From contig JAEIOD010000007.1 of the NCBI GenBank assembly GCA_016342415.1, forward strand, positions 124,001 through 188,000: a stretch of 64,000 nucleotides of DNA, given 5' to 3'. The position numbers and the translations under genes were made by a program. Shown here in pieces: positions 31,974-38,141 of this stretch; position 1 is the first letter of the stretch, and each line of letters begins with the position of its first letter. The notes under the pieces were generated by a model that worked only from the letters and a program-made list of their open reading frames with translations, was not told where the DNA came from and made no database searches. This DNA comes from Clostridiales bacterium. Lineage in GTDB: Bacteria; Bacillota; Clostridia; Peptostreptococcales; Acidaminobacteraceae.

Positions 31974-32390
31974 ATGAAACATTTCAGAAAAGAGTTATGG
32001 TTTAGAATTCCTGAAAGAAGAGGATTTAGAAATATCACACCAACTTTAGAGGAATGTCTTAAAGAGAGTGGTATAAAGGAAGGTTTTCTTTTATGTAATG
32101 CAATGCATATTACTGCAAGTGTTTTTATAAATGATGATGAAGGTGGTTTGCATAGAGACTTTGAGAGATGGTTAGAGAAATTAGCACCTGAAAAACCCTA
32201 TGACCAGTACGATCACAATGGTTATGAGGACAATGGCGATGCCCACTTAAAACGTACGATTATGGGTAGGGAAATAGTTGTAGCAATCACAGATGGCCAG
32301 CTTGATTTAGGGCCTTGGGAACAAGCTTTCTACGGGGAGTTTGATGGCTGTCGTAATAAAAGGGTGCTTGTGAAAATAATAGGTGAATAA
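31974..32390 (+). CDS. yjbQ: YjbQ (UPF0047) family protein
   Basis: The 138-residue protein has the family blocks GFRNITPTLEECL, CNAMHITASVFINDDEGGL, YEDNGDAHLKRTIMG and DLGPWEQAFYGEFDG. Relatives have thiamine-phosphate-synthase-like activity in vitro, but the physiological role is unsettled. The last 60 bp, including the stop, are the source or target of five further copies downstream (to 38141). The gene itself appears intact. Confidence 0.93.
   Translation: MKHFRKELWFRIPERRGFRNITPTLEECLKESGIKEGFLLCNAMHITASVFINDDEGGLHRDFERWLEKLAPEKPYDQYDHNGYEDNGDAHLKRTIMGREIVVAITDGQLDLGPWEQAFYGEFDGCRNKRVLVKIIGE
32331..32390 (+). repeat. R0, yjbQ 3' end (in the intact gene)
   Basis: This copy encodes YGEFDGCRNKRVLVKIIGE plus stop. 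It differs from R3 at about five positions, all silent. Upstream of TAC the intact gene reads GCTTTC, whereas all other copies read ATTCGC or GTTCGC. A CTTCTC...GGAG hairpin follows the stop, as after R1 and R3. Confidence 0.9.
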
Positions 32391-32470
32391 TTTTAAAGGC
32401 TTCTCTTCATACTAACAGGAGCTTCGTATTATAATAGGCATTAATATTCTGACCTGTAAAGAAGTGTTGT

Positions 32471-32499
32471 TTGACAAGATTTCACATATAAAGTATTAT
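32471..32499 (+). promoter_or_regulatory. Promoter of the 2H phosphoesterase cassette
   Basis: TTGACA (32471-32476), a 17-bp spacer and TATTAT (32494-32499) give a near-consensus promoter. Transcription would start near 32506, just before a strong hairpin. Confidence 0.8.
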
Positions 32500-32517
32500 A
32501 AATATATGCTATTAGGC

Positions 32518-32558
32518 ATCCCGCGGAACGAGCGATATCGTTTCGCGGGATTTTTTTT
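32518..32558 (+). terminator. Intrinsic terminator in the 5' leader of the 2H gene
   Basis: ATCCCGCGGAACGA (32518-32531) and TCGTTTCGCGGGAT (32538-32551) form a 14-bp GC-rich stem with a GCGATA loop and a run of T. GGAGGTG, the ribosome site of the next gene, begins right after the T run. It stands between promoter and start codon, so it may act as an attenuator, or stop yjbQ read-through. Confidence 0.85.
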
Positions 32559-32570
32559 GGAGGTGAAAAT

Positions 32571-33092
32571 ATGTTAAAAAGAGTAATTAGTGTAATAGCC
32601 TTATTTGATGATGAAGGAGACAAAAAGATCAGGGACATACAGAACATAATGCAACAATCTCCAAGTTGGCTAAATGATTTGCTGCATTTAACTTTAGCGG
32701 TTTATGATAAACCGTTAGATGAAGGCGAATTGATAAACTGGATAGTCAATGTATCAGAAAGACATAAGGCATTTAACCTTGATTTAGTTTCGATTGGAGT
32801 ATTTCATAAGTCTTGTATTTTTGCAATGCCAAGACTGGCTAAAGAGATGTATCAATTATACATGAACATACATGATAGGTTTGAAGATCAGTGTAGGGAT
32901 TACTTAAAACCCTCTGAGAACAAATGGTTTCCTCATGTGGGGTTGCTCTATACTGACATTGAAAACGCTTGTAATAAATTACCTGTTCTAATACAAAAGT
33001 TTGAAGAGACAAGAGTGAGAGTGAACAGATTACGAATTACCATAAGAGAAGAAGAGCATTTTCGAATATTGTACGAAGTATCACTAAACTAA
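32571..33092 (+). CDS. 2H (2'-5' RNA ligase-like) phosphoesterase-fold protein
   Basis: The 173-residue protein has two histidine motifs at the right spacing: HLTLAVY (about residue 39) and PHVGLLY (about residue 123). The 2H family has two HxT/SxU motifs; the second here has glycine in place of Thr/Ser. Such enzymes act on cyclic phosphates in RNA or nucleotides, and many are accessory genes. It is the only gene of the first cassette. The closest subfamily is not clear to me. Confidence 0.68.
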   Translation: MLKRVISVIALFDDEGDKKIRDIQNIMQQSPSWLNDLLHLTLAVYDKPLDEGELINWIVNVSERHKAFNLDLVSIGVFHKSCIFAMPRLAKEMYQLYMNIHDRFEDQCRDYLKPSENKWFPHVGLLYTDIENACNKLPVLIQKFEETRVRVNRLRITIREEEHFRILYEVSLN

Positions 33093-33201
33093 TATGTTAC
33101 AACCAATGTTTGAAGATTTTATCATCTACATAATTGAGTTCATTACATAATGAAGTTGATATGGAAGTTTAGTTATCAGTATAATTTTACATCGACATTT
33201 A

Positions 33202-33266
33202 TTCGCTACGGTGAGTTTGATGGATTTCGAAATAAGAGAGTTCTGGTAAAAATAATAGGTGAATAA
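33202..33266 (+). repeat. R1, yjbQ 3'-end copy
   Basis: 65 bp beginning TTCGCTACGGTGAG. In the yjbQ frame it reads IRYGEFDGFRNKRVL, then VKIIGE and a stop. No in-frame upstream yjbQ sequence is present, only unrelated AT-rich DNA. Confidence 0.92.
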
Positions 33267-33271
33267 GTTTG

Positions 33272-36658: not shown

Positions 36659-36679
36659 AAAGTTTTACATTGATAATAA

Positions 36680-36744
36680 TTCGCTACGGTGAGTTTGATG
36701 GCTGTCGTAACAAAAGAGTTCTGGTTAAGATTATAGGTGAGTAA
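36680..36744 (+). repeat. R4, yjbQ 3'-end copy
   Basis: 65 bp, same peptide as R3 with about seven silent differences. Its right end overlaps the last codons of the converging hydrolase gene, whose stop codon lies inside the repeat. Confidence 0.93.
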
Positions 36745-37543
36745 ATATAATAGATGTTAAACAAGAAATGCCTTTGATTATTTCTATAAATGTATCCTTA
36801 GCATATTTTTCTCGCCAAGGATAATGACCACATTTAGTGAGAAGGTTAAAATCATAATCTATATCTAATTGATCAAAAGGCTCAATTATGCCTTTGATGT
36901 TGTGTGAATCATAATCACCTTGAACAACATGTAATGGAACGGATAAGCATTTTACAATATCAAGCAATTGACCATTTCTTCTTAATGATGACGCTTCAGA
37001 CCATATTGAATCATACATCTTAAAGTCACCTTGACCAACACTAGCTTGTTCATTTTCTATGTATGCGTAAGTGTCTAGTTTTCCCATAAGAGCTCCGAAC
37101 TTTTTCATTACATCATTCTTGACGGACATGTCACCAGAATTGAGTTCCTTCACTAGGGAATCAAAGTATACCCTCTCTTTAGGAGATAGTCGACTCATTC
37201 GAGTGTTATTGAATTCTCTTACATAATCCTCATTGAAACATCCACTACCGACAAGAACTAACTTATTAATATTCTCAGGATACCTTGCAGCATAAAGGCA
37301 TATTAACCAGGCTCCCCATGAATGTCCAAGAAGGACAAATTGCTCCTTGCAATGGTTATCAATGCAGACTTTCATGTCTTCGATTAACTCGTCAATTGAA
37401 CATTTCGTTTGATTTATTTCCAAGACGCCTAATTCATCAGATAGCATCAGAGCCAAATCTTTCATACTACCTCTTGCTCCTGGACCGCCGTGTACAAGTA
37501 CCAGTTTAATGTCTTCTTCTCCATATATATTGTAATCGTTCAT
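36731..37543 (-). CDS. Alpha/beta hydrolase
   Basis: The 270-residue hydrolase has oxyanion segment LVHGGPGARGSM, nucleophile elbow LLGHSWGAW, acid VVQGDYDSHN and histidine CGHYPWREKYA. This is the layout of proline iminopeptidase-like and drug-modifying hydrolases. The last residues and the stop (36731) are encoded within R4, so the natural C-terminus may have been replaced when the cassette was inserted. It is downstream of a merR gene with 8 bp between them. Confidence 0.87.
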   Translation of the reverse strand: MNDYNIYGEEDIKLVLVHGGPGARGSMKDLALMLSDELGVLEINQTKCSIDELIEDMKVCIDNHCKEQFVLLGHSWGAWLICLYAARYPENINKLVLVGSGCFNEDYVREFNNTRMSRLSPKERVYFDSLVKELNSGDMSVKNDVMKKFGALMGKLDTYAYIENEQASVGQGDFKMYDSIWSEASSLRRNGQLLDIVKCLSVPLHVVQGDYDSHNIKGIIEPFDQLDIDYDFNLLTKCGHYPWREKYAKDTFIEIIKGISCLTSIIFTHL

Positions 37544-37551
37544 TGCTTCTC

Positions 37552-37917
37552 CTATTCTGTTTTATCTTTCAACTTAGACTTATAAAGGTTTACTTTTTTA
37601 TTCAAGAAGTCGATACCAGCATCGATTTTCTTTTTTTCTACAATAAGCTTTTCCCGACACTCAAGAGCCACAGATAACCTCTCATTAAAATCCTCATTGT
37701 TGCTATAATAAAGCATACCAAACTTCTTTATATCTTCAATTGGGAGACATGCAGATTTCATAGAGACAACAAATTTAATCCATTGCAAATCTTCTTCCGT
37801 ATATTCTCTCTGTCCAGAGTCATTCAGCTTAATGTTCTTTATCAGTTCAATTTTTTCATAGTATCTTAGAGTAGAACAACTTAATCCAGTAAGTTCACTT
37901 ATTTCTCCTATTCTCAA
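37552..37917 (-). CDS. MerR-family regulator
   Basis: The 121-residue protein starts MRIGEISELTGLSCSTLRYYEKI and has the MerR helix-turn-helix, wing (GQREYTEEDLQWIKF) and a dimerising coiled coil. The cysteine pattern of metal-sensing members is absent, so it is nearer to drug or stress sensors. It is co-transcribed with the hydrolase from a 19-bp-spacer promoter typical of MerR activation. Confidence 0.92.
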   Translation of the reverse strand: MRIGEISELTGLSCSTLRYYEKIELIKNIKLNDSGQREYTEEDLQWIKFVVSMKSACLPIEDIKKFGMLYYSNNEDFNERLSVALECREKLIVEKKKIDAGIDFLNKKVNLYKSKLKDKTE

Positions 37918-37942
37918 GTTAACACCTCCGCTTCATGAATTT

Positions 37943-37973
37943 ATTGTAACACTTAAAGTATACTTGAAGTCAA
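37943..37973 (-). promoter_or_regulatory. MerR-type promoter with 19-bp spacer
   Basis: On the minus strand TTGACT (37973-37968) and TACAAT (37948-37943) are 19 bp apart. The spacer is the dyad CTTCAAGTATACTTTAAG. A stretched spacer with central dyad is the classic MerR target. Confidence 0.85.
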
Positions 37974-38076
37974 GATATGTATTTGACAAATTTGACAAAC
38001 TTATTAGTCATGAAAGTTAACTGATCATATTAGTTTATGTATGTAAACTTGAAGAGTTCCATACCATTTGGATTGG

Positions 38077-38141
38077 TTCGCTATGGAGAATTTGATGGCA
38101 AACGAGACAAACGTGTCTTAATCAAAATTACTGGTGAATGA
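38077..38141 (+). repeat. R5, most divergent yjbQ 3'-end copy
   Basis: 65 bp reading VRYGEFDGKRDKRVLIKITGE-like codons and ending TGA rather than TAA. About 20 of 65 bases differ from R4, including several amino-acid changes. It closes the array. As the distal copy it may be the 3' end displaced first. Nothing else was seen between it and the serpin gene except the AGGGAG ribosome site. Confidence 0.88.

Follow-up and report, generated by a model that had tools for sequence, protein, structure and literature searches.

In a stretch of 64,000 nucleotides from a Clostridiales bacterium of the family Acidaminobacteraceae (assembly GCA_016342415.1, contig JAEIOD010000007.1, positions 124,001 to 188,000; hereafter the window), an intact yjbQ gene is followed by five further copies of its own 3' end, and the copies are separated by single unrelated genes or gene pairs. 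Probably, the array is extended each time a small circular cassette enters yjbQ, through site-specific insertion, at the point where CTACGG begins. Each cassette would bring one or two genes, a conserved tail ending in TTCG, and a substitute for the final 20 codons of yjbQ, stop included; this cassette-borne end is likely to be a working one. Upon insertion, the incoming end would keep yjbQ in frame, while the old end would be pushed downstream behind the new gene, making the array a record of past yjbQ ends in which copy 1, the present gene end, is predicted to belong to the newest cassette. The ends would be exchanged mostly among close relatives, although copy 6 is not a neat fit, and the recombinase would presumably act in trans. 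We infer the circular intermediates, the insertion order and the kind of recombinase. Site-specific capture is preferred because the boundary is fixed, the cassettes share a tail motif, the copies vary mainly at third codon positions, and Acidaminobacter sp. JC074 has its own version of the locus. The idea of a cassette array whose joining end is protein-coding had been put forward in a preliminary description of this DNA, and the boundary, the tail motif, the coding constraint and the JC074 comparison all support it.

Repeated yjbQ ends and their join point

All six copies, the first family in a direct-repeat search, lie on the plus strand with spacings of 876, 848, 1307, 1323 and 1397 bases (Table 1). 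At up to two mismatches, the core TAYGGNGARTTYGATGG has seven matches in the window, of which six are exact and belong to the array and one, at 12333, has two mismatches; since only 0.24 matches are expected, a chance origin of the copies is ruled out. Across the whole 5.4 Mb genome (83 contigs, with the window on contig C68; estimated completeness 98.82, contamination 9.08), a longer copy pattern gave six matches at zero mismatches, all of them in the array, and a second pattern allowing up to three mismatches gave the identical six array matches and no others. A peptide search of the genome added one full-length YjbQ relative (139 amino acids, 41% identity) and nothing else. The repeat and pattern searches reproduce exactly the six same-orientation copies and five cassettes of 848-1397 bases given in the preliminary description. 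Its repeat coordinates also stand, with two corrections: in copy 1 the stretch shared with yjbQ begins one base earlier, at CTACGG, and in copies 2-6 the first four bases, TTCG, are cassette tail and lie outside yjbQ. Rfam gave no match between 30000 and 40000 at E values up to 1, and no tRNA genes were found in the window, so that an RNA element and a tRNA target were both rejected.

In an alignment of the copies, similarity to yjbQ sets in at CTACGG, which is preceded by TTCG in the cassette tails and by TTT in the intact gene. Columns -3 and -2 before the join read CG in all six displaced copies (five in the window and one in JC074) and TT in all three gene-borne ends, namely those of the window genome, JC074 and their congener G029. 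The first six bases from the join are CTACGG in five of the six displaced copies and CTATGG in copy 6; at the gene ends, they are CTACGG in both array genomes and TTACGG in G029, which has no array. Ten of the 23 columns upstream of the join are invariant across the six unrelated cassettes, five from the window and one from JC074. For comparison, in 20,000 random draws of six sequences from nearby DNA, invariant columns averaged 0.07 and never exceeded 2, and the five adjacent upstream windows of 23 bases in the same six sequences had 0, 1, 0, 0 and 0. The arrangement CCATACCAT-N6-T-N2-TTCGCTACGG recurs, with no more than one mismatch, at three window junctions and in JC074, and the junctions before copies 2 and 5 carry the TTTTACAT variant of the tail. 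A fixed boundary combined with a conserved tail on otherwise unrelated cassettes points to a cassette-specific half-site that is joined to a half derived from yjbQ.

Homologous, Campbell-type insertion of circles or transformed fragments through the 60 bases of yjbQ homology, which needs no site-specific enzyme, would also leave a hybrid yjbQ, a gene and a leftover 3' end after a single crossover, as observed, and any two of the six copies have 42 to 58 of 64 bases in common. Random fragments, however, would begin anywhere in yjbQ, whereas the displaced copies all begin at one base and each has in front of it a conserved motif that yjbQ lacks. We therefore consider this explanation highly improbable.

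The copies also bear the mark of coding constraint. Over their 19 codons, the six sequences have 5, 2 and 18 variable columns at codon positions 1, 2 and 3, respectively (Fisher p 2e-8 for the third-position excess), and copies 1-5 alone have 1, 1 and 15 (p 2e-8). All six translate as YGEFDGxR(N/D)KRVL(V/I)KI(I/T)GE followed by a stop, which is a normal YjbQ C-terminus. Because drifting duplicates would not give third-position variation together with an intact C-terminus, each copy has the look of a once functional gene end moved out of place and not of a decaying duplicate. Simple tandem duplication of one locus, an alternative raised in the preliminary description, was rejected, given that the cargo genes are unrelated, the copies differ at synonymous sites, and the tail motif is missing from yjbQ.

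In single-strand folds, a hairpin with a T run stands behind copy 2 (about 33272-33294), behind copy 4 (about 35429-35454) and behind the JC074 copy. The whole folds of these three copies are no better than their shuffles (z -0.24, -1.10 and +0.89, respectively), and the terminator scan, made on the window only, did not list the hairpins behind copies 2 and 4; on both grounds, terminators behind the copies were set aside.

Relatives, other genomes and the source of the ends

JC074 (locus L019) has yjbQ at the same locus, beside the same upstream genes, and continues with an unrelated cassette open reading frame (ORF) of 270 amino acids without a Pfam or NCBIfam match, the tail TTCCATACCATTAAGAATAATTCGCTACGG joined to a yjbQ-end copy, and a toxin-antitoxin block. 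The two genomes are 80% identical over 446 columns in yjbQ and its flanks, and no significant similarity was found between the bodies of their first cassettes (best E 0.31). Behind these, the toxin-antitoxin block of window cassette 2 is 81% identical to that of JC074 over 604 aligned columns, from window position 33233, inside the repeat, to 33833, inside the toxin gene. The toxin of JC074 (L019 11926-12246) has an unrelated tail fused in place of its own, and the pair is likely altered in that genome. The third genome of the genus, G029, has yjbQ at the same locus with no further end copy in the locus examined. The next conserved gene follows yjbQ after about 8.9 kb in the window, compared with about 19 kb in JC074 and about 6.4 kb in G029. 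Small tandem cassettes thus vary between relatives, as they do in integrons, and the concern that close relatives might keep the same five genes in the same order is answered by the different first cassette of JC074.

Concerning the source of the ends, 61 bases of each copy were compared with 97 distinct yjbQ gene ends. Copies 1, 2, 4 and 5 match one another best (54-56 of 61) and agree with their best gene ends, all from the genus or family (JC074, G029 and G040), in 50-52 of 61. Copy 3 agrees in 53 of 61 bases both with the yjbQ of the family member G040 and with copy 5. Copy 6 reaches 41-42 of 61 with its nearest copies and 49 of 61 with its best gene ends, which come from metagenome-assembled genomes (MAGs) of Bacteroidetes/Bacteroidales.

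The tail motif, at up to three mismatches, occurs in two of the 41 family genomes, both of this genus. At up to two mismatches it occurs in two of 391 class genomes, the window genome and one with an isolated match that has no yjbQ end behind it, and it has no match in IMG/VR.

Copies of the yjbQ end were sought by a gapped self-search of 101 loci with a whole yjbQ, among which L019, L146 and L174 are one place and L020/L154 and L021/L147 are likely duplicates, apparently from the same contigs. A second copy was found in JC074, L066, L082 and L139; the JC074 copy had been missed by an ungapped self-search owing to a 15-base internal deletion. In L021, L048, L049, L062 and L157, the matches were limited to sequence at or after the stop. 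L066, from a Verrucomicrobia MAG, has two yjbQ ends at positions 455 and 1318 (863 bp start to start) that enclose a DUF3368/UPF0175 toxin-antitoxin-like pair by Pfam and differ over 57 bases at 2, 0 and 6 sites by codon position. In L082, from a Lentisphaerae MAG, an alpha-L-fucosidase gene lies between two ends 2,063 bp apart, but their homology starts later in the gene, with differences of 1, 1 and 1 over 42 bases. L140, from genome G095 of another Clostridia family, is a solo yjbQ end with no yjbQ in the contig part examined; it starts near the point used in the array and shows 2, 1 and 6 codon-position differences from G095's own yjbQ. As hints of a wider use of the site, these three cases are suggestive only.

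A C-terminal peptide search of 391 class and 393 order genomes, two overlapping sets, revealed no further genome with two or more short-frame matches among those listed, which for the class genomes extend down to E of about 3e-4. This search can overlook copies with deletions, and the JC074 copy is absent from its matches. Single short-frame matches were seen in G052, G095, G160 (a contig end), G180, G368, G631, G708 and G717, among others. The solo copies of G180 and G708 were not counted as belonging to the array system because their position is upstream of yjbQ and their first base falls further 5' in the gene. In two Clostridia genomes, stray yjbQ-end fragments (L139 6815-6892 and, on the reverse strand, L211 at about 11750-11823) lie about 8 kb upstream of the intact yjbQ on the same strand and start further 5' than in the array.

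The same peptide search yielded two matches in 50,697 phage records and two in 72,556 plasmid records, all four of them ends of whole yjbQ-family genes, which led us to reject a phage or plasmid attP. Ten IMG/VR contigs match a 19-base pattern, none of them with a sequence that could be read as the end of yjbQ. A complete yjbQ relative is present in three viral contigs, which were covered by the gapped self-search. These results bear on the possibility that larger elements of integrative mobilizable element or prophage type accreted in tandem at the yjbQ end and later lost their integrase and backbone, leaving one-gene remnants (cis-mobilizable elements). Such an origin requires no new system, and each unit does have at its borders direct repeats that stem from the 3' end of the target gene and rebuild it. 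Accretion of islands at gene 3' ends is already described (PMC5704250), and 15 of the 31 Dehalococcoides ssrA islands are without an integration module (PMC3146451). Nevertheless, all five window cassettes have spacings within 848-1397 and a cargo of one or two genes, with no recombinase domain among the genes scanned. No larger element with an integrase related to the cassettes was found in the phage, plasmid, viral and yjbQ-locus sequences searched, and a home-made tyrosine-recombinase profile, built from ten sequences of this genome and checked on those alone, was blank across 4,419 ORFs of the yjbQ loci. We consider accretion of larger elements unlikely.

Candidate recombinases and comparison with known systems

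Contig C68 has no match to PF00589 or PF00239, and the genome's 29 PF00589 and 7 PF00239 matches all lie on other contigs. This absence fits the earlier suggestion that the recombinase acts from elsewhere, to which no enzyme can be assigned. We compared the two array genomes with the array-less G029, using 43 distinct ORFs derived from 29 + 6 + 13 PF00589 matches. XerD-like and XerS-like proteins occur in all three genomes, as does an integron-like integrase (L007, L176 and L175; 42-54% pairwise identity). The NCBIfam integron-integrase model matches the latter at 182, 155 and 177 bits, below its cut-off of 265, and in both genomes whose surroundings were searched the gene adjoins a cassette-like repeat array on another contig. 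To our knowledge, an integron-like system is unusual for Clostridia.

It could be argued that this integrase, present in all three genomes and placed beside cassette-like repeats, also works the yjbQ array. However, the repeats that accompany it do not resemble the yjbQ sites, comparison of the whole yjbQ array with both repeat arrays gave no match at any junction, and the enzyme is also present in G029, which lacks the yjbQ array. The six junctions, folded as single-strand DNA, have no common structure (z -2.62 to +0.89; attC core boxes were not motif-searched), and an attC-like fold was rejected accordingly; the lowest value belongs to copy 6, which forms a stable hairpin of its own. Control by this integrase is the least probable of the explanations considered here.

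The integron-like arrays themselves (L208 63-3548 on contig C6 of the window genome, and L210 4889-16827 on contig C108 of JC074) consist of an integrase of 337-342 amino acids and repeats of about 200 nucleotides, mostly spaced at 1.0-1.3 kb with small genes between them. By eye, these genes include AAA ATPase-like and HNH-like ones, and the place looks conserved, beside a glycoside hydrolase-like gene of 687 amino acids. One repeat of this system folds with a z of -2.33.

A large serine recombinase (L166/L219) shows 78% identity between the two array genomes, against at best 32% in G029. It is not claimed as the array enzyme, given that it belongs to a separate element of its own whose ends are unlike the yjbQ site. 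This element (L223 8891-14762 and L224 353-8781) has ends that share the inverted bases GTCACTGCTAT/ATAGCAGTGAC. By eye, it also carries a recombinase-like gene of 288 amino acids, and its cargo differs between the two genomes, being NB-ARC/STAND-like in one and composed of response regulators and a large protein in the other. Tyrosine recombinases act on an overlap and serine recombinases on a core, and an exchange at the CTACGG bases that both partners share would be equally compatible with a tyrosine overlap, a serine core or another short-core enzyme.

It is important to consider the observations that weigh against site-specific capture of circular cassettes. Neither the cassettes nor contig C68 as a whole were found to encode a recombinase, and the search for a conserved enzyme in the array genomes, proposed in the preliminary description, yielded no candidate that shares the distribution of the arrays and also has a link to the site. 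The tail motif occurs in just two of the 41 family genomes, so the comparison rests on two arrays, and the copy in JC074 carries an internal deletion of 15 bases. In addition, copies 1, 2, 4 and 5 resemble one another more than they resemble any of the 97 gene ends, which does not appear to support separate donors. Copy 6, which would be expected to be the host's original end if insertion always took place at yjbQ, seems unlike the ends of the genus.

Integrons, the textbook platform for collecting single genes, are defined by IntI, attI and attC. The yjbQ array resembles them as a row of small cassettes, mostly of one gene or pair and including toxin-antitoxin cargo, with the same type of join throughout, and in that a relative has a different first cassette with a shared cassette behind it. 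It differs in that there is no adjoining integrase and no common attC-like fold, and in that the join is the coding end of yjbQ, restored by each cassette. The array is thus integron-like in layout but not an integron, and its site choice is like that of islands at gene 3' ends. Staphylococcal cassette chromosome (SCC) elements at rlmH keep the 3' end of a protein-coding gene intact, form composite tandem islands, measure tens of kb and carry ccr genes. The 3' end of an intact protein-coding gene is the insertion site here as well, but the target is yjbQ, contig C68 has no PF00239 match, and the cassettes are far smaller. The dif (pdif) modules of Acinetobacter plasmids are also small modules, some with toxin-antitoxin pairs, moved in trans by a recombinase encoded elsewhere. 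Their Xer sites lie outside genes and alternate in orientation, in contrast to the yjbQ copies, which share one orientation and overlap the end of a gene.

Among the published systems that we found, the Dehalococcoides ssrA array (PMC3146451) comes nearest. Its tandem units are bounded by direct repeats of a single-copy gene's 3' end, many of them are without an integration module, and one fixed base differs between the gene and the displaced repeats, as in our case. The site there is the tmRNA gene, the repeat measures 20 bp, the islands hold many genes, and 16 of 31 carry a serine recombinase module; here, in contrast, the site is a protein gene, the repeat is about 60 bp, the units hold one gene or pair, and no recombinase was found. 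In the open-access literature, where an absence is weak evidence, we found no account of yjbQ/UPF0047 as an integration site, and yjbQ does not appear in the main text of an integrase-prospecting paper (PMC12884075). As far as our searches show, what appears to be new is the combination of one gene or pair per unit with a protein-coding join that would restore about 60 coding bases, together with signs that the restored ends are under continuing coding constraint.

In a broader sense, the arrays may represent a second gene-cassette system, independent of integrons, in which one-gene circles carrying a working yjbQ C-terminus and stop are recombined in trans at a fixed base, possibly in other phyla as well; we regard the chances of this as evenly balanced. 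The extension to other phyla is suggested by the Verrucomicrobia MAG, where a gene pair lies between yjbQ ends that differ mainly at third positions. If true, cassette capture evolved more than once, and these cassettes would repair the gene they enter as payment for landing. A coding yjbQ end without a gene in front of it would offer a sharp search key for the recombinase.

Cassette contents and neighbouring genes

The cargo genes are listed in Table 1 with the other features of the array. Profile matches bear out the earlier reading of the cargo as a 2H phosphoesterase, a toxin-antitoxin pair, an APH kinase, a radical SAM protein, and a hydrolase with a MerR regulator.

Table 1. Features of the yjbQ array, in window coordinates
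Feature	Position	Strand	Remarks
yjbQ, intact	31974-32390	+	PF01894 118 bits; TIGR00149 (YjbQ) 100 bits; last 20 codons including stop are copy 1
Copy 1, present yjbQ end, CTACGG to stop	32330-32390	+	
Cassette 1: 2H phosphoesterase / 2'-5' RNA ligase-like	32571-33092	+	PF13563 27.3 bits, cut-off 27
Cassette-tail half-site	33183-33205	+	TTTTACAT type, ends TTCG
Copy 2 of yjbQ end	33206-33266	+	
Cassette 2: RelB-type antitoxin	33392-33700	+	Pfam/NCBIfam profiles; 87.6% identical in JC074
Cassette 2: ParE/RelE-type toxin	33697-34011	+	Pfam/NCBIfam profiles
Cassette-tail half-site	34031-34053	+	CCATACCAT type, ends TTCG
Copy 3 of yjbQ end	34054-34114	+	
Cassette 3: APH-fold kinase	34343-35257	+	PF01636; public-data relatives at 68-74%
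Cassette-tail half-site	35338-35360	+	CCATGCCAT, ends TTCG
Copy 4 of yjbQ end	35361-35421	+	
Cassette 4: radical SAM protein	35594-36658	+	PF04055; relative at 78%
Cassette-tail half-site	36661-36683	+	TTTTACAT type, ends TTCG
Copy 5 of yjbQ end	36684-36744	+	
Cassette 5: alpha/beta hydrolase	36731-37543	-	PF00561; gene 3' end overlaps copy 5
Cassette 5: MerR-family regulator	37552-37917	-	PF13411; NmlR-like match below cut-off
Cassette-tail half-site	38058-38080	+	CCATACCAT, ends TTCG
Copy 6 of yjbQ end	38081-38141	+	Farthest and most divergent, still coding YGEFDGKRDKRVLIKITGE

Directly behind copy 6 lies a serpin gene (38232-39494; PF00079, 324 bits), which is possibly a further cassette whose outer end has been lost, but no yjbQ end is visible just past the gene. 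Upstream of yjbQ, an alpha/beta hydrolase gene is represented by two ORFs (31181-31522 and 31573-31965) and is probably broken.

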